This document shows, piece by piece, positions 27,908 through 54,498 of a DNA stretch of 64,000 bases. Within the stretch, counting starts at the first letter, position 1, and every line of letters begins with the position of its first letter. The stretch spans positions 1 to 64,000 of the forward strand of contig JACMPC010000204.1 of the NCBI GenBank assembly GCA_014377705.1. The letters are read 5' to 3'. Made by a program: the position numbers and the translations under genes. Source of the DNA: Dermatophilaceae bacterium. Its GTDB lineage: Bacteria > Actinomycetota > Actinomycetes > Actinomycetales > Dermatophilaceae. The notes under the pieces are model-generated. The model was not told the origin of the DNA. It saw nothing but the letters and a program-made list of their open reading frames with translations, and ran no database searches.

Positions 27908-28909
27908 ATGAAGTACAACCTGAGTGGTCGGAACTTCCTCAAGGAGCTCGACTTCACGCCCGACGAGTGGCGCCATCTGCTGACCCTCTCGGCGTCGCTG
28001 AAGGCGGACAAGGCCGCCGGGCGCGAGCTGAAGCACCTGACCGGCAAGAACATCGCCCTTATCTTCGAGAAGACGTCGACCCGGACCCGCTGCGCGTTCG
28101 AGGTCGCTGCGTTCGACCAAGGAGCCCATGTCACCTACCTGGACCCCAGCGGCAGCCAGATCGGACACAAGGAGTCGATGAAGGACACCGCGCGGGTGCT
28201 GGGCCGGATGTACGACGGCATCCAGTATCGCGGGTCGCGCCAGGAGCTGGTGGAGACCCTCGGAGAGTTCGCCGGGGTTCCGGTGTGGAACGGTCTGACC
28301 GATCAATGGCACCCGACCCAGTCGTTGTGCGACATTCTCACCATGCGCGAGGCCTGTCCCAAACCGGATGCCGAGATCGCCCTCGCGTTCTGCGGCGACG
28401 CGCACAGCAACGTGGGCAACTCGCTGCTGCTGGGCGCCGCTCTGCTGGGGATGGACGTCCGGATGGTGGCGCCCCGCTCGCTGTGGAACCCCGACGAGGT
28501 GATCGCCGCAGCCACGGCCATCGCCGAGACCACGGGTGCACGGATCACCCACACCGAGGACGTCGACGAGGGTGTGGACGGGGTCGACTTCGTGCACACC
28601 GACGTGTGGGTCTCGATGGGCGAGCCCCAGGAGAAATGGGCTGAACGGATCGAGCTGCTGCGGCCATACCAGGTCAATGCAGACCTGATGAGGCGCACAG
28701 GCAACCCTCGAGTCCGCTTCATGCACTGCCTGCCCGCCTTCCACGACCGGAACACCACGGTGGGCGAGCAGCTATTCCAGGCGACCGGTCTTGACGCCCT
28801 CGAGGTCACCGACGAGGTCTTCGAGTCCGGCGCGTCCATCGTGTTCGACCAGGCGGAGAACCGGATGCATAGCATCAAGGCCATTCTCGTCGCGACCCTC
28901 GGCGGCTGA
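27908..28909 (+). CDS. arcB: ornithine carbamoyltransferase (catabolic context)
   Basis: This 333-residue enzyme interconverts citrulline plus phosphate with ornithine plus carbamoyl phosphate. It has the carbamoyl-phosphate site STRTRCAFE, the HPTQ-containing [11 protein letters not shown] and the ornithine loop [10 protein letters not shown]. The segment [13 protein letters not shown] differs from the more usual VGDARNN form. It begins 1 nt after the arcA stop. Between deiminase and carbamate kinase its direction is expected to be catabolic. Confidence 0.94.
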
Positions 28910-28913
28910 GGTC

Positions 28914-28979
28914 ATGCGCCGCAGCACCGCGGGCTGCCTGGCCATCACCATCACCCTCACCATCTGCGTCGGGACCTGA
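28914..28979 (+). CDS. possible 21-residue small ORF between arcB and arcC
   Basis: ATG to TGA gives MRRSTAGCLAITITLTICVGT, with a basic start and a hydrophobic body. Its TGA ends directly before the arcC GTG. It fills the only gap of the operon exactly and could couple arcC translation or encode a micro-membrane peptide. No family is recognised and chance is possible. Confidence 0.25.
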   Translation: MRRSTAGCLAITITLTICVGT

Positions 28980-28980
28980 C

Positions 28981-29922
28981 GTGCGCATCGTCGTCGCTCT
29001 GGGAGGCAACGCACTCCTCAAGCGTGGAGAGAAGCCGGACGCGGCCAACCAGATTGCCAATGTGACCACGGCGGTCGAGGCGCTGGCCCCCCTGGCTCGC
29101 GAGCACGAGCTGGTGGTCACCCACGGCAACGGCCCCCAGATCGGCGTGCTGGCGGTGCAGAGCGCGTCGGACCCGAGGCTGTCGGAGCCTTATCCGCTGG
29201 ACGTGCTCGGGGCGCAGACGCAGGGGATGATCGGCTACTGGCTGCTTCAGGCCTTCCAGAACGCGCTTCCGGGGCGTCAGGTCGCGAGCATGCTGAACCA
29301 GACCCTCGTGCTCGCCCACGATCCGGCCCTGGAGAACCCGACGAAGTTCGTCGGCGAGGTCTACGAGGAGGAAGAGGCCCACCGGCTGGCCGGGGAGCGG
29401 GGCTGGACCGTCCATCAGGACGGGAACGGCTGGCGCCGGGTCGTCGGGTCGCCCAGGCCTCAGCGCGTCGTCGAGACCAGGATGATCCGGTTGCTGCTTC
29501 GCAGCGGCGCGGTGGTCGTCTGCGCGGGCGGTGGGGGTGTGCCGGTCGTCCGGAACGAGCGTGGCAAGCTGCGCGGCCTTGAGGCTGTCATCGACAAGGA
29601 CCTCACTGCAGCCGTGCTGGCCGAGGCCCTGGACGCGGACGTGCTGATGGTGCTGACGGACGTGCCGAACGTGGTGCGCAACTACGGGACGCCGCAGGCG
29701 GAGGCCATCTCGCGGATCACACCGGGGGCCCTGCGCCGGGAGCAGTTCCCGGCCGGCTCGATGGGCCCCAAGGTCGACGCTGTGTGCCGGTTCGTCGAGC
29801 TGACCGGTGACATGGCCGCCATCGGCCGGCTGCAGGACGCGCAGGCCATCATGGCCGGGGATGCCGGGACCATCATCACCCCGGGCGGCAACTACGGCGG
29901 GCCCGACGACCTGGTGAACTGA
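28981..29922 (+). CDS. arcC: carbamate kinase
   Basis: The 313-residue enzyme transfers the carbamoyl phosphate phosphate group to ADP, the ATP-yielding step of the arginine deiminase pathway. Motifs: VVALGGNALLKRGE, VVTHGNGPQIG, VVCAGGGGVPV, EAVIDKDLTAA and AGTIITPG at the C-terminus. The start is GTG. It follows arcB by 71 nt, a gap occupied by a 21-codon frame. Confidence 0.95.
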   Translation: MRIVVALGGNALLKRGEKPDAANQIANVTTAVEALAPLAREHELVVTHGNGPQIGVLAVQSASDPRLSEPYPLDVLGAQTQGMIGYWLLQAFQNALPGRQVASMLNQTLVLAHDPALENPTKFVGEVYEEEEAHRLAGERGWTVHQDGNGWRRVVGSPRPQRVVETRMIRLLLRSGAVVVCAGGGGVPVVRNERGKLRGLEAVIDKDLTAAVLAEALDADVLMVLTDVPNVVRNYGTPQAEAISRITPGALRREQFPAGSMGPKVDAVCRFVELTGDMAAIGRLQDAQAIMAGDAGTIITPGGNYGGPDDLVN

Positions 29923-29923
29923 G

Positions 29924-30694
29924 ATGATGGCGCAGCGGCCGGCGGGTGGGGCGGGATCGGGCGGATCTGGGTCGGCCCGACGCATCGAGGTCGACCCAGA
30001 ACGAATCGGCAGGTGGGTCAACGGTTTCGCCGAGCGTCATGGGGAGGTCCACGCTTCACCCGGTTCCTTGGCATGGTCGGCGGCGCAGAGATCGGTGACC
30101 TTGACGGCCGCAGACGGTGCCACGGCTGTTCTGGAGCCCTGTGTGCCGGCGGATGCCAGTGTGCCGGCGGACGGCAGCGACGCAGGTGGGCCACGCGAGC
30201 TCGCCGGACTCGAGGGGCTGGCGGACTGGGTGGCGCCGCCGACCGTTTTGGCGCTGATACTGATCCGGCGCGGTGGTTATGCGGTCGGCCTGGGGCGGGG
30301 TGCCGAGCTCATCTCCCACAAGGTCGGGACCCGCTACGTCCAGTCGCGGACGGCCGCCGGCGGCTGGTCGCAGCATCGTTTCGCGCGACGCCGCGACAAC
30401 CAGGCGGACGCGCTGGTGGTCTCCGTCATCGACCACGCCCGCCGAGTCGTGCTCGCCTCTCGCGACGGCGAGGATGTGCGCACCCCCGCAGGCGCCCTGG
30501 TGGTCGGGGGCGACAGGTCCCTTGTCCGGGACGTCCTGGCTGACCCGCGTCTGGCCAGACTCGCGAAGCTCCCGCGCAGGGAGCTCTTCGACCTGCCTGA
30601 CCCGAAGTTCGTGGTCCTGAAGCAGGCCCTGCGTCGGGGCAGGGCCGTGCGCATCACGCTCTCAGAGCCGGAGGCTACGCCAGGAGCGGTTTGA
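29924..30694 (+). CDS. acVLRF1-type peptidyl-tRNA hydrolase (Vms1-like release factor)
   Basis: The 256-residue protein belongs to the actinobacterial VLRF1 group, related to eukaryotic Vms1/ANKZF1 and eRF1. These factors cleave peptidyl-tRNA on split 50S subunits during ribosome rescue. The catalytic-loop region is GTRYVQSRTAAGGWSQHRF, with the GGWSQ glutamine characteristic of the family, followed by ARRRDNQAD. The C-terminal segment RRELFDLPDPKFVVL is also typical. It starts 1 nt after arcC and ends overlapping the convergent cDPG synthetase-like gene by 20 bp. The link with arginine catabolism is probably only positional. Confidence 0.85.
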   Translation: MMAQRPAGGAGSGGSGSARRIEVDPERIGRWVNGFAERHGEVHASPGSLAWSAAQRSVTLTAADGATAVLEPCVPADASVPADGSDAGGPRELAGLEGLADWVAPPTVLALILIRRGGYAVGLGRGAELISHKVGTRYVQSRTAAGGWSQHRFARRRDNQADALVVSVIDHARRVVLASRDGEDVRTPAGALVVGGDRSLVRDVLADPRLARLAKLPRRELFDLPDPKFVVLKQALRRGRAVRITLSEPEATPGAV

Positions 30695-31988
30695 GCGCGT
30701 CGAGCAGGCTCGGCGAGTCCGGCAGGACCTCCAGGTCGTAACGGACGCGGACTGCGGGCTTGCGGATATCTATGACGGCGCGGAGGTCGATGGGGGTGCC
30801 GATGATTACGACGTCGACGTCCGCCGTGTCGATGATCTGCTCCATCTCGGCGAGCTGGCCCTCCGAGTAGCCCATGGCCGGAAGCACCGGCCCGACGTCA
30901 TACTTCAGGAACGTCGCCGCGATCGTGCCGATCGCCCAGGGCCTCGGGTCGACGATCTCGCTCGCTCCATGTGCCCTGGCCGCGACGACCCCGGCGCCGA
31001 ACTTCATCTCGCCATGGGTCAGGGTCGGACCGTCCTCGACCACCAGGACGCGTTTGCCCCTGATCGCATCGGGATCGTCAACGCTCACCTGGCTGTTCGC
31101 CCTGATGACCGTCGCCCCCTGGTTCGTCTGGTGGATCGTGTCCATCAGTGCGCTGACCTGTTCGGCGGAGGCCGAGTCCATCTTGTTGATCACGATCACG
31201 TCGGCCATCCGGAGGTTGACCTCCCCCGGGTAGTAGCTCGTCTCGTGACCGGCGCGAAGCGGGTCGGCGACCACGATGTTGAGGTCCGGCTTGTAGAAGG
31301 GCAGGTCGTTGTTCCCGCCGTCCCACAGCAGCACGTCGCACTCCGCCTGCGCCTGCTCGAGGATGTCTCCGTAGTCGACTCCCGCATAGATGATCGTGCC
31401 CGAGGTGATGTGGGGCTCGTACTCCTCGCGCTCCTCGATCGTGGTGTCGTACCGGTCCAGGTCAGCCAGGGTCGCGTAGCGCTGCACCCGCTGAGCCTCG
31501 AGATTCCCGTACGGCATCGGGTGTCGCACCGCCACGACGCGCTTACCGGCTTCCTTCAGCAGGCCGGCGATCGCCCGGGTCGTCTGGCTCTTGCCCGAGC
31601 CCGTGCGGACGGCGCAGACGGAGACCACCGGGACGGTCGAGGTCAACATCGTCGCGCGCGCCCCGAGCAGAACGAAGCTGGCTCCATCGGCCAGCACCTG
31701 GCTGGCCTTGTGCATCACGTTCGCGTGGCTGATGTCCGAGTAGCTGAAGACGACGTCGTCGATCTCCTGCTCCGTGATCAGCTGGCTGAGCATGCTTTCG
31801 TCGTGGATCGGGATGCCCTCCGGATAGTGCTGGCCGGCCAGGCTCGCCGGGTACGTCCGGTCGTCGATGAACGGGATCTGAGTCGCGGTGAAGGCGACGA
31901 CCTCGACCTTGGGATCGTTCCGGTAGGTGACGTTGAAGTTGTGGAAGTCGCGCCCTGCGGCGCCCATGATGAGAAGTCGACGCCGCAT
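30675..31988 (-). CDS. cyclic 2,3-diphosphoglycerate synthetase-like GTPase-fold protein
   Basis: The 437-residue protein resembles the cyclic 2,3-diphosphoglycerate synthetase family, known from thermophilic archaea and widespread in bacteria of unproven role. It begins RRLLIMGAAGRDFHNFN, has a P-loop VCAVRTGSGKSQTTRAI near residue 130, a Walker-B-like LLWDGGNNDLPF and an NKMD guanine-specificity-like VIVINKMDSA. The start (MRRRLLIMG) has GAGGA upstream. Such genes are often neighbours of carbamate kinase or arginine deiminase genes, as here, where it converges on that operon with a 20-bp overlap of 3' ends. Its substrate in bacteria is unsettled. Confidence 0.8.
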   Translation of the reverse strand: MRRRLLIMGAAGRDFHNFNVTYRNDPKVEVVAFTATQIPFIDDRTYPASLAGQHYPEGIPIHDESMLSQLITEQEIDDVVFSYSDISHANVMHKASQVLADGASFVLLGARATMLTSTVPVVSVCAVRTGSGKSQTTRAIAGLLKEAGKRVVAVRHPMPYGNLEAQRVQRYATLADLDRYDTTIEEREEYEPHITSGTIIYAGVDYGDILEQAQAECDVLLWDGGNNDLPFYKPDLNIVVADPLRAGHETSYYPGEVNLRMADVIVINKMDSASAEQVSALMDTIHQTNQGATVIRANSQVSVDDPDAIRGKRVLVVEDGPTLTHGEMKFGAGVVAARAHGASEIVDPRPWAIGTIAATFLKYDVGPVLPAMGYSEGQLAEMEQIIDTADVDVVIIGTPIDLRAVIDIRKPAVRVRYDLEVLPDSPSLLDALKPLLA

Positions 31989-32029
31989 TTCTGGTTCCTC
32001 TCCGAGGTTCGATGTGAGGCACACAGCTA

Positions 32030-32344
32030 GCGATGCCGCTAGAGCCGAACCTACTCAGTGCCTGCTCGCAAGGGAACCCCACGGGATTCCGTGGCCGCCT
32101 ATGGGATCCTGTGGATGTGGCGGAATCTCGTGGACCGGGTGGCGTCTTGTTGCTTGAGACCTTCGAGGAGATGCCCGGCGCGGAGTACGTCTACCGGGTG
32201 CTCATGGGGATGGAGGAGCGCGGCCTGCTCGAGCAGCTCGCCGCCGTCGCGGTGACAATGGCGGGTTGATGACGGTGACGGCATCAGCCGCACCGTCACG
32301 GTGACCTACCGAGGGCATCGACTACGTGAGGCGAGGGCAGATGC
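32030..32344. other. intergenic region holding a decayed gene end
   Basis: The gap between two divergent-outward minus-strand genes contains no intact gene. Its middle encodes a remnant resembling the C-terminus of S66 peptidases (listed separately). The left part probably holds the promoter of the cDPG synthetase-like gene. Confidence 0.45.
32136..32269 (+). pseudogene. S66 peptidase (LD-carboxypeptidase/MccF-like) C-terminal remnant
   Basis: One frame reads GGVLLLETFEEMPGAEYVYR followed by MGMEERGLL, like the C-terminal LFLETSEE...GERGLL segment of MccF-like S66 peptidases. The upstream part of the gene is absent and the frame ends soon after. It is non-functional. Confidence 0.4.
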
Positions 32345-33067
32345 CTATGCAGGCAGACACCGGAAGGCAACGTGTTCCATCTGGCTCGCGGGAGTGAGAC
32401 CGGGGTAGTGCTGGGTTAGAGCGGCAAGCTGTGCCTCGCCGGTGCCTGCCTGGTCGTTGGCGTCGTCCTCGTCCATCAGCTGCCGCATCAGAGCGGGCCG
32501 GATCATGGTCACCTCGCCGTTCAGGGCTCTTGGCCCATCGTCAAACTCAAACACCAAGGTGGCCGGTCCGAGGTGAGCCGGATCGTCGAAGCGGATGGTG
32601 CTGGTCTTGCGGCCTTGCGCGACATCGTCAATGTACCGTGCGGAAAAATAGACGACGCGAGGTCGGGGTCTAGGCTCAGGACGCAGATAGGTGCCGGGCA
32701 ACAGGCTGCTCACGCGGACCCTTGTCGGGCCTTCCTCGTCTGGCCAGGCTGGCATGATGACGCCGATGTCCGGGAAGTAGTCGCTCAGCACCTGTCGACA
32801 GCGCCCGCACGGAGGCAAAATCCCCCTTCCGTCATTTCCCACGGGCACCATGGTGATGAGTGGAGCGGCTGCTGCCGCGGCGGCAACCCCGAGCACCACC
32901 ACCTCGGCGCACGGCCCGCCGGTGAAGTGGTCAACGTTGACCCCGATGAAGATGGGTTCCCTGGCGTCCATGGCTGCCGCTGCGACTGTGTGCTCATCGG
33001 TGTCAGGCAGGGAGGCAACCAGTTTCAGTGCGGCGTCCAAGACCCTGGATTCCACTGTGAATAGCAT
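32345..33067 (-). CDS. cytidine deaminase-like / ASCH (YqfB-like) fusion protein
   Basis: The 240-residue protein joins two nucleoside enzymes. Residues about 1-125 are a cytidine-deaminase fold with zinc motifs GPCAEVVVLG (CAE) and ILPPCGRCRQVL (PCxxCRQ). Residues about 137-240 are an ASCH domain that can be aligned by eye with Escherichia coli YqfB, an N4-acetylcytidine amidohydrolase: VAQGRKTSTIR preserves the K-x-x-T arrangement of its active site, and the ends (HYPG..., FRCLPA) also match. The fusion suggests sequential N4-acetylcytidine to cytidine to uridine salvage (inference). The ATG has AGGAGAG upstream. It lies 17 bp downstream of recQ in the same operon. Confidence 0.8.
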   Translation of the reverse strand: MLFTVESRVLDAALKLVASLPDTDEHTVAAAAMDAREPIFIGVNVDHFTGGPCAEVVVLGVAAAAAAAPLITMVPVGNDGRGILPPCGRCRQVLSDYFPDIGVIMPAWPDEEGPTRVRVSSLLPGTYLRPEPRPRPRVVYFSARYIDDVAQGRKTSTIRFDDPAHLGPATLVFEFDDGPRALNGEVTMIRPALMRQLMDEDDANDQAGTGEAQLAALTQHYPGLTPASQMEHVAFRCLPA

Positions 33068-33084
33068 CTCTCCTGCTTTCAGTG

Positions 33085-35090
<2,006 letters not shown>

Positions 35091-50540: not shown

Positions 50541-53500
50541 CTAAACGACGGGGACAATATCACCCGCGGGCTCATGTGGCAGTTCTGGATCATGAGGAAG
50601 CTCGGTCTTGTGAACAAGCTCGGTCGTGTGAGGAAGCCCAGGCGTGTGGAAAGGCTCGGTCTTGTGAGGGGGCTGAGTCTTATGAGGAGGCTGAGTCTTG
50701 TGAGGAGGCTCAGCCGACGCTGCCGCCACGTCGCCGGAGACGGCGGTGGCCTCATCGCCAGAGACCTGCGCGGCGTCCTGCATCTGCTGGGGGTGCATGT
50801 CCGGATCACCTGCCGCATCACCGCTGTGGGCGCCGGCCTGGGCCTGGTTGGCGATGATCTCGAGCTCACCGATAACGGTCGGGTGTCTGTCGACGCACAG
50901 CACGACGAGATCGCCGGGGTTGGCCCGGGCCATGCAGTGGCGCACCGCGGTCAGCTCCTCCAGGACGATCTCCACCTGCCGGCAACGGGCAGTGCCATCG
51001 GCCATCCGGGCTCGCGCCCCCTGCGCCACGAGCTCGGCGGTGGCGCCCGGCGTACGCCCGCGAAGCCGGTCGTCCTCGCGAACAACCAGGACGTCGAAGT
51101 GCTCTGCCGCGATCGCTCCCAGCTCGCGGATATCCTCGTCGCGCCGATCACCCGCGGCGCCGATCATCCCAATCCTCGAGGCCTTCCCCAGGTCGGACTG
51201 GCCGGCACGCTGCGCGGAGTACGACTCGACGAAGTCGCCGAGCATGCGCATGCCGGGTGGGTTGTGGCAGTAGTCGACCACGACCTCGATGTGATTGATG
51301 TCGAGCAGGTTCATCCGGCCGGGGGAGAGGTAGTAGGAGGTCGTGAAGGTCCGCAGACCCTGACGGATGTCGTGCAGGGGCGCGCCGGCGGCGAAAGCGG
51401 CACCCGCCGCAGCCATGGCGTTGGCGACGTTCATCTTGGCCGCGCCGCCGAAGGTCGAGGGCAGCAGGTGGGTCCAGGCAAGCTGCATGCTGCGCCGGCC
51501 GTGCCGGATCACGATCATGTCGCCCTTGTCGGTGGGTTCGAGCACGACGGCGCGGCCTCCCCGGCGGCAGCGCTCGTCGATGAAGTCGCGCACCTTGCTG
51601 CCGGGCGGGAGCATCGAGAACCAGACGACTTCCCCCGAGCAGCGACGGCGCATCGCCCGGACCAGCTCGTCGTCGGCGTTCAGCACCGCGAACCCGTCGC
51701 GAGGAACGGCTTCGACGACAACGGCCTTGACGTCGGCCAGCTGTTCGAGGGTGTGCACCCCGTGCATCCCGAGGTGATCTGGCGACACGTTGGTCACCAC
51801 GGCAACGTCGTTGCGGTCGTATCCCAGGCCCTCACGCAGGATGCCGCCACGGGCAACCTCCATCACCGCGAAGTCGACGCGCGGGTTCTGCAGCACCATC
51901 CGGGCCGACTTGGGACCGGAGGCGTCGGCCTTGATGACGAGGCGCTCGTCGATGACGACCCCGTCGGTGGAGGTCATCCCCACCTTGCGGCCCAGACCCT
52001 TGAAGATGTGGGCGATCATCCGGGCTGTCGTGGTCTTGCCGTTGGTCCCGGTCACCGCGATGATCGGCACCCGTGACGGAGCTCCCGGCGGGAAGAGCAG
52101 GTCGACCACCGGCTTGGCGATGAACTGTGGCTCACCGACCGTCGGGTGGGTGTGCATCCGGAACCCGGGGGCGGCGTTGACCTCGCAGATGGCGCCGCCG
52201 GTCTCACGGACGGGATGAGCGATGTCCGGACAGATGAAGTCGATCCCGGCAACATCCAGGCCGATCATCCGGGCCGCTTCCTCGGCGATCTCCACATTGT
52301 CGGGGTGGGCGTCGAACGTCCGGTCCACCGAGATGCCGCCGGTGGACATGTTGCCGGTCAGGGCCAGCTTGACCATGGTGCCGGCGGCAGGGACGGACTC
52401 AAGCCCGAGCCCATGGGCCGTCAGCAGATCAAGCGCCGCGCCGTCCACGGTGATCTTGGTCAGAACCTTCTCGTGACCAACTCCCCGGCGTGGGTCGGCG
52501 TTGGTCGTCTCCACCAGCTGCGCGACCGTATGTCGTCCGTCCCCGATCACATGAGCGGGCACCCGCTCGGCGATGGCCGCCATCTTGCCTCCGACGATGA
52601 GGCACCGGTAGTCGCGTCCGATCAGCAGCGACTCCACCACGCAGACCCCCCGTCGCGACTCGGGCTCGGCCACCAGCCAGGCGGCACTCACCGCCTCGGC
52701 ATCCGGCAGGTTCAGGCAGACGCCCCTGCCGTGGTTGCCGTCCAGGGGCTTGACCACGCACGGATAGCCGATCCGGTCCGCCGCCGCCACCGCAGCCTCG
52801 ACACTGCGTACCGGCTCGCTACGGGGGACCGGCAGGCCGGCAGAGGCCAGCAACTTGGCGGTCAGGTCCTTGTCGCCGGCGATGTCGACGGCCAGCGCGC
52901 CGGTCCTGGACGTCATGGTGGCGCGGATCCGCTGGGCGTGGACGCCCTGGCCCAGCTGGATCAGCGAGTGCTCGTTGAGGCGAATCCACGGGATGTCACG
53001 CGAGACCGCCTCCTCCAGGATGGCTGAGGTCGACGGGCCGAACGCGATCCTCTGGGCGCTGGTCAGGAAAGCCTCCAGCTCGGTCTGGAAGCCGAACCCC
53101 GGCTCCGGCCGGACCAGGTGGTTGACCAGCCTGACGGCCAGCTGCCCGGCCGCCAGACCCACCCGCTCGTCAACGTAGCCGTAGATGACGTTGTAGACCC
53201 CCGGCTTGCCCCTGACCTGACGGGTCTTGCCCCGGCTCAGCTCATGGCCTGCCTCCTTCTGCACCTGCAGCGCGACATGCTCGGCCACGTGCCCCATCCA
53301 GGTGCCCTCGCGCAGTCGCTGCACGAAGCCGCCGGCGACTCCGCGGGAGCAGGTGTGTTCGGACAGCCCCGGCAGGAGCCTGAGGAGCTCGTCGGTGAAG
53401 CCATCGACGGCGTTCGTCGGGTGGTCCTCGAGGCTGCCCAGGTCGACGACCAGATGGATGGCCGGCTCGTAGGACCAGATGTTCGGCCCGCGATAGACGC

Positions 53501-53637: not shown

Positions 53638-54492
53638 TCAATCTGGGGCTTTGGCGGAGGCCCTGACGGTGACGTCAGGGTGCTTCTCGACGAACCCGAT
53701 CAACTGTGCCGTGTGTAGGTCGAACGTAGCGCCGCCGGGAAGTGAGTGAACCACCGCACCGGAAATCAGCAGGGGAGCGTGCCTGCGGGCCTCGGGAACA
53801 TCGCTGACCGCCGCCCGGGCATCGACGACGAAGACCGCTCCCGAACCCACCACCATGAGCCTGCGCCCGTCGCGGACCTCGGCGGCGGTGTCCTCGTCGA
53901 TGCCCACGCCGAGCAGGTCCGGGGAGCCGGCCACCAATGACATCAGCCGGCCGTACCGGGCCCGCTGGTCAAAGTGCTGGTCGATGATGACCCCCGGAAG
54001 CAGGCCCAGCCCGGAGGTCAGCTGGCTGCTGCGCTGCCGGGGGGTCACCCCGTCCGCACCGAGGGAGATCATGAAGCTGCTCATGATGGAGGCGCCCGCT
54101 GACGTGCCGGCCACGACCGCGCCGCGTTCGTGCGCCCGCGAGATGGCGGCCGCCAGCGGGGTGCCGACGAACAGCTGGCTGAGCTTCAGCTGGTTGCCGC
54201 CGGTCATGAAGACGCCGGTCGCGTTGTCCATCTCGCCCACCAGCGCGCTGTCGGCGGCAGCCTGACGAGAGCGCGGGTTGACGACGACGACCTGCGGCGC
54301 CCCGAGCCGGCCGAAGGCGACGTTGTAGGTCTCGACGGCCTCATCCGGGAAGGCGGACGCGCTGGGGATGACCACGATGCGGGCCTTGCGCCCGCCGGCA
54401 AGACGCACGAAGCGGCGAAGGACCGTCGCCCTGCCCACCTTGTCCTCGGCGCCGCCGATGATGAGCAGGCACGTGTGAGCTGTTCTGACCAT
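53638..54492 (-). CDS. cphB: cyanophycinase
   Basis: The 284-residue serine peptidase (S51 family) cleaves cyanophycin to beta-Asp-Arg dipeptides. It shows LLIIGGAEDKVG near the start, GVFMTGGNQLKLSQLF, the nucleophile in VVAGTSAGASIMS and the downstream IIDQHFDQRARYGR with the histidine region. It has no signal peptide, so it acts on cytoplasmic granules. The ATG has TAGGCT 6 nt upstream; a GTG one codon before is possible. It precedes cphA in the same operon. Together they store and recover arginine and aspartate. Confidence 0.94.
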   Translation of the reverse strand: MVRTAHTCLLIIGGAEDKVGRATVLRRFVRLAGGRKARIVVIPSASAFPDEAVETYNVAFGRLGAPQVVVVNPRSRQAAADSALVGEMDNATGVFMTGGNQLKLSQLFVGTPLAAAISRAHERGAVVAGTSAGASIMSSFMISLGADGVTPRQRSSQLTSGLGLLPGVIIDQHFDQRARYGRLMSLVAGSPDLLGVGIDEDTAAEVRDGRRLMVVGSGAVFVVDARAAVSDVPEARRHAPLLISGAVVHSLPGGATFDLHTAQLIGFVEKHPDVTVRASAKAPD

Positions 54493-54498
54493 CACGAC

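Follow-up and report, generated by a model that had tools for sequence, protein, structure and literature searches.

A blasticidin S deaminase-like domain fused to a YqfB-type ASCH domain in actinobacteria: a candidate two-step enzyme against acylated cytosine antibiotics

The window analysed here, a 64,000-nucleotide stretch of a contig from a Dermatophilaceae bacterium, carries an open reading frame that we confirmed to encode a zinc deaminase joined to a YqfB-type ASCH domain (Table 1). The deaminase-type zinc motifs CAE (residues 53–55) and PCGRCRQ (residues 86–92), followed by an ASCH domain, are present as the original prediction had described them. The Pfam ASCH model PF04266 matches residues 140–231 with 26.7 bits against a gathering cut-off of 21.2, and the cytidine/dCMP deaminase zinc model matches residues 7–95 slightly below its cut-off. 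An AlphaFold2 model of the fusion, built with 58 family members, has a mean pLDDT of 92.5 across both domains.

Table 1. Positions in the window of the fusion gene, its domains and the residues discussed
Feature	Position	Strand	Remarks
Whole fusion gene, BSD-like deaminase and YqfB-type ASCH domain	32345..33067	-	240 aa, ATG start
N-terminal blasticidin-S-deaminase-like domain	32678..33067	-	Residues 1-130; phmmer against PDB, Foldseek, tree
HFTGGPCAE, motif of the BSD type; includes the first zinc cysteine, Cys53, and the catalytic Glu55	32903..32929	-	Residues 47-55; aligned to BSD C54/E56
PCGRCRQ, zinc ligands Cys87 and Cys90	32792..32812	-	Residues 86-92; aligned to BSD C88/C91
C-terminal YqfB-type ASCH domain	32348..32662	-	Residues 136-240; YqfB 9kyf/9kyh top Foldseek matches
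KTSTIR, K154/T157/R159 = YqfB K21/T24/R26 (base, nucleophile, oxyanion hole)	32591..32608	-	Residues 154-159; roles per PMC6972931
D205, opposite YqfB catalytic acid Glu74	32453..32455	-	Family alignment
Y221 = YqfB Y89, substrate contact	32405..32407	-	Alignment
Segment present in the window, missing from the congener recQ-HAD stretch	32313..33094		blastn, window against L117

The deaminase half resembles blasticidin S deaminase (BSD) more closely than cytidine deaminase. Its best PDB matches by phmmer were the BSDs of A. terreus (E = 7.6e-33) and Coccidioides (E = 8.1e-32), while the top cytidine deaminase reached E = 2.2e-6. Foldseek gave the same ranking, with BSD (E = 5e-13) ahead of the cytidine deaminases, and identities in the fold search were 48–51% to BSD and 21–32% to cytidine deaminases. 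In a maximum likelihood tree of 134 deaminase domains, the fusions, standalone bacterial relatives and fungal BSDs were split from the canonical cytidine deaminases with a branch support of 100/100. The NCBIfam equivalog for tetrameric cytidine deaminase (TIGR01354) scored 48.2 bits, under its cut-off of 113.65; the zinc motifs, which had been read as those of an ordinary cytidine deaminase, mark a BSD-like domain instead. Judged by its sequence, the deaminase half is a member of the BSD clade and is atypical as a cytidine deaminase. It shares the superfamily and zinc chemistry with the tetrameric enzymes, but these form a separate clade, and their NxE ribose-binding Glu is not retained in the fusion family.

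Compared with the solved BSDs (A. terreus PDB 1wn5/1wn6/2z3g-j; Coccidioides 3oj6), the deaminase half has about 50% identity over the domain and shares the fold, the zinc ligands, the catalytic Glu and the HFTGGPCAE motif. BSD has no ASCH domain, whereas the window protein is bacterial and has one as a C-terminal extra. The zinc ligands Cys54, Cys88 and Cys91 and the catalytic Glu56 of BSD correspond to C53, C87, C90 and E55. The Cys53 and Glu55 positions are invariant in the aligned fusions (87/87), and the Cys90 position holds Cys in 69/87 and Asp in 18/87. The resulting PCGRDRQ motif, with Asp for the second zinc Cys, was also observed in many standalone relatives (the loci include L078, L084, L096, L107, L122 and L140-L146) and is an unusual change at a zinc site for the deaminase superfamily. 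Differences from BSD lie nearer to the substrate. Where cytidine deaminases have their ribose-binding Glu, BSD-like proteins for the most part carry Tyr, His or Phe; the window protein has Asp46 there, opposite BSD Tyr47. Of Tyr126 and Trp128 at the end of the BSD domain, Tyr126 is kept as Tyr127, and the Trp128 position is Arg129 in the window protein and frequently His, Phe or Trp in other fusions. Since near-substrate positions differ (D46 for Tyr47, R129 for Trp128), the window protein may act poorly on blasticidin S itself. Activity of the deaminase half on blasticidin S had been named beforehand as an outcome that would speak against the original prediction, and the sequence comparisons suggest something near to it.

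In a single-sequence search, the alignment with E. coli YqfB covers the C-terminal half from one end to the other (E = 1e-4), and a profile of 58 ASCH halves run against the whole PDB found YqfB as its sole solved-protein match (E = 3e-9). In a fold search with the modelled ASCH domain (pLDDT 93.8), the YqfB crystal structures came first, including the complex with N4-acetylcytidine (ac4C), at 27% identity as opposed to 11–18% for other ASCH proteins. YqfB (PDB 9kyf/9kyh) is thus the nearest solved structure, sharing the ASCH fold and the Lys-Thr-Arg-Tyr active site; it differs in being a standalone monomer instead of part of a deaminase fusion, and the window protein has Asp for both Glu74 and His70. 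In YqfB, Lys21, Thr24 and Arg26 are essential, Thr24Ser stays active, Glu74Ala lowers ac4C turnover 1000-fold, and ac4C is the preferred substrate (PMC6972931). Among the 87 aligned fusions, Lys occupies the Lys21 position in 86, and the Thr24 position is divided between Thr (81) and Ser (6); Arg26 is conserved in all 87 and Tyr89 in 83. The predicted Lys (K154) and Thr (T157) were recovered by alignment, together with the Arg and Tyr, but the predicted Glu was not: Glu74 aligns with Asp205, an assignment made by sequence alignment. One pairwise alignment offered Gln206 as the Glu74 equivalent, and we set it aside as the family alignment places Asp205 there. This position is Glu in 33/87 fusions and Asp in 26/87, hence acidic in 59/87; the remainder have other residues or a gap, leaving about one third of members without an acidic residue. 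Because the essential residues of YqfB are retained in the fusions, the ASCH half is likely a catalytic amidohydrolase, with the identity of its acid in some doubt.

Alternatively, the protein could be a blasticidin-type deaminase with a non-catalytic ASCH module for binding or oligomerization, for instance one that holds the nucleoside or RNA. The members whose Glu74 position is not acidic would fit such a module, as would the binding of nucleic acid by other ASCH proteins, such as the TRIP4-DNA structures (weak fold matches), and the fact that standalone BSD-like proteins without an ASCH domain are commoner than fusions. We nevertheless hold it unlikely, given that the YqfB active-site Lys, Thr/Ser, Arg and Tyr are near-invariant in 87 sequences and that the sole replacement of Thr is Ser, the single swap known to leave YqfB active (PMC6972931). 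Related ASCH domains were also seen in other contexts. In another actinobacterium (L148:1501-2421), a YqfB-type ASCH domain with the motif GEKVTTVRW is fused to a SAM-dependent-methyltransferase-like domain, and standalone YqfB-like ASCH proteins (KLQTIRVDDP) occur in relatives from the host's family (L013:1429-1776, L015:1474-1908) and are close to the ASCH half found in the L008 fusion.

A scan of bacterial and archaeal genomes, looking for the fusion elsewhere as had been proposed, found it at full length in at least 80 further loci, mostly actinobacterial; these are the best loci of one scan, and in each the match spans most of the fusion. Given this recurrence the fusion is not due to chance. 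The genera among the loci listed include Streptomyces, Arthrobacter, Promicromonospora, Brevibacterium, Curtobacterium, Nesterenkonia and Occultella, among others, and two metagenome bins labelled Acidobacteria and Thermomicrobiales also carry it. Of 395 genomes drawn evenly across the host's class, 5 had the full fusion and about 25 a standalone BSD-like protein. Six plasmid records bear the full-length fusion, annotated as 'ASCH domain-containing protein', and the Rhodococcus gordoniae plasmid copy is flanked by IS3 and IS5 transposases. A phage origin was rejected, as no homologue of the fusion was found in 50,697 phage records. On the deaminase tree, three or more changes of the 'fusion' state are needed along branches with good support, so there was more than one gain or loss of the ASCH domain. 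The standalone actinobacterial BSD-like proteins, called 'cytidine deaminase', share the deaminase clade with the fusion but have no ASCH domain. They are common in actinobacteria (L124-L147), many ending in ..LLPESYVWADHQ, some are plasmid-borne and annotated plainly as cytidine deaminase, and some may be blasticidin resistance genes. No Rosetta-stone pair, with separate BSD-like and YqfB-like genes side by side, was found: none of the 28 loci of standalone BSD-like genes had an ASCH gene within the 1.5 kb flanks. Our literature search found no paper on an ASCH domain fused to BSD or cytidine deaminase.

At its present site the fusion gene is a horizontally acquired single gene. From a carbamate-kinase-like gene through recQ, the HAD gene and an ABC protein, a congener (G003) is syntenic with the window at 81–88% identity, and it has 26 bp where the window has 782 bases, so that the fusion gene is missing there. 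The same congener bears its own fusion on a different contig, 46–48% identical. The GC3 of the fusion gene is 0.739, compared with 0.867 ± 0.038 for the 37 other window genes, and is the lowest of the 38. At the 80 best loci listed, no neighbour recurred broadly besides antisense shadows of the fusion gene; the genes compared came from simple ORF calling, by which weakly conserved ones could escape detection. An operon with recQ and a HAD phosphatase had been offered as a hint to function. Because the congener stretch lacks the gene and no neighbour recurs in the 80 listed loci, this arrangement tells little about function, and we rejected it as a functional link; it is specific to the host genome and accidental.

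The original prediction had the enzyme channel ac4C from RNA turnover through cytidine to uridine. YqfB prefers ac4C (PMC6972931), its catalytic residues are retained in the fusion family, and Asp46 of the window protein is near the ribose-binding Glu position of cytidine deaminases. Against a salvage enzyme, the deaminase half lies in the BSD clade, outside that of the cytidine deaminases, and a patchy, plasmid-borne, recently acquired gene is unlike housekeeping. Besides the fusion, the host genome encodes a cytidine deaminase above the equivalog cut-off, and TmcA and TmcAL domains gave no match in it, in searches that did detect them in control genomes where they are expected. Nine further genomes with the fusion agree: each encodes another cytidine deaminase (104–123 bits), and none has TmcA or TmcAL. 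Since in all ten fusion genomes checked (10/10) a cytidine deaminase is encoded separately and both known bacterial ac4C writers are lacking, ac4C salvage is an unlikely role for the fusion; an unrecognised writer or environmental ac4C is a possible source. Of the two-step enzyme first proposed, removal of an N4-acyl group followed by deamination still fits both halves, and the ac4C substrate and the role in RNA turnover are unlikely.

We propose that the fusion acts on acylated cytosine nucleoside antibiotics of the amicetin group and their relatives, first removing the N4-acyl group and then deaminating the base, a reading to which we give a probability of roughly 0.5; the activities, their order and the substrate are all inferred. 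The YqfB-type domain would act first, hydrolysing the N4-acyl amide with Thr157 as the putative nucleophile, Lys154 as base, Arg159 in the oxyanion hole and Asp205 as acid. Next, the BSD-like domain would deaminate the cytosine thus exposed, with zinc and Glu55, to yield uracil. The targets would be cytosine nucleoside antibiotics from neighbouring streptomycetes: both steps would be required for the N4-(p-aminobenzoyl) compounds (amicetin/plicacetin/bamicetin/cytosaminomycin group), and the deamination step alone for those with a free amino group, of the blasticidin/gougerotin type. Re-acylation could not reverse the cytosine-to-uracil change. More tentatively, the family might form a new class of two-step resistance enzyme for N4-acylated cytosine antibiotics, spread over actinobacteria and plasmids, that blocks re-acylation.

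Published work on the parts of this scheme bears on both steps. BSDs are resistance enzymes (PMC4664946, PMC9897663) that inactivate blasticidin S by turning it into deaminohydroxyblasticidin S (PMC4664946). YqfB has a broad N4-acylcytidine range and tolerates bulky 5' groups; it takes para-substituted N4-benzoyl cytidines, including 4-benzoylbenzoyl, and refuses ortho-substituted ones (PMC6972931). In the Streptomyces antibiotics amicetin, bamicetin, plicacetin and the cytosaminomycins, the cytosine C4 amino group carries a p-aminobenzoate amide, extended at the para position in amicetin (PMC4278220, PMC12856912), and amicetin and blasticidin S have a ribosomal cytosine-binding pocket in common (PMC12856912). 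We found no report of amicetin having been tried on YqfB. Ordinary cytidine deaminases can strip N4-acyl groups directly (PMC9897663), so that simple acylcytidines do not strictly call for a fused deacylase.

A two-step detoxifier would account for the domain pairing, for a deaminase half descended from BSD rather than cytidine deaminase, for the distribution as an accessory gene and for the occurrence in actinobacteria. It is supported by the kinship of the deaminase half, whose nearest solved relatives are BSD resistance enzymes split 100/100 from cytidine deaminases, by the likeness of the ASCH half to YqfB with its conserved catalytic set, by the para-substituted benzoyl groups that YqfB accepts, by the separate cytidine deaminase and missing ac4C writers of the ten fusion genomes, and by the accessory-gene behaviour (5/395 genomes, six plasmid copies, no conserved neighbour at the 80 listed loci, absence from the syntenic congener stretch, low GC3). 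Against it, there is no recurrent resistance or biosynthetic neighbour at the 80 listed loci, and the position of the presumed acid is Asp in the window and non-acidic in about one third of members. The enzyme might instead act on other modified cytosines, N4-acylated or substituted, from foreign DNA, phage or the environment, in nutrient use or general detoxification. Both halves resemble enzymes of substituted cytosines, and cytidine deaminases are promiscuous at position 4 (PMC9897663), yet the phage records held no homologue and the 80 best loci listed showed no recurrent link to transport or catabolic genes, making this a quite improbable role. A tailoring or self-resistance enzyme inside a nucleoside-antibiotic biosynthetic cluster would agree with the many listed members in Streptomyces; with no recurrent biosynthetic neighbours within 10 kb at those 80 loci, we consider it very improbable.

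If detoxification is correct, a large family that databases label merely 'ASCH domain-containing protein' would gain a function, BSD-type resistance would have a two-step form that copes with acylated cytosine antibiotics, and YqfB-type chemistry would have a physiological role besides ac4C. The amicetin and blasticidin scaffolds are under redevelopment as drug leads (PMC12856912), and the fusion family would point to a natural reservoir of resistance to them.

Elsewhere in the window, ornithine-carbamoyltransferase-like and carbamate-kinase-like genes adjoin a CobW/CbiA-type nucleotide-binding protein (30675-32024); this stretch (27908-32024) is syntenic in congener G003 (L117). A cyanophycin-synthetase-like gene (50541-53324) lies near a cyanophycinase-like gene on the minus strand (53638-54495), as judged by eye.
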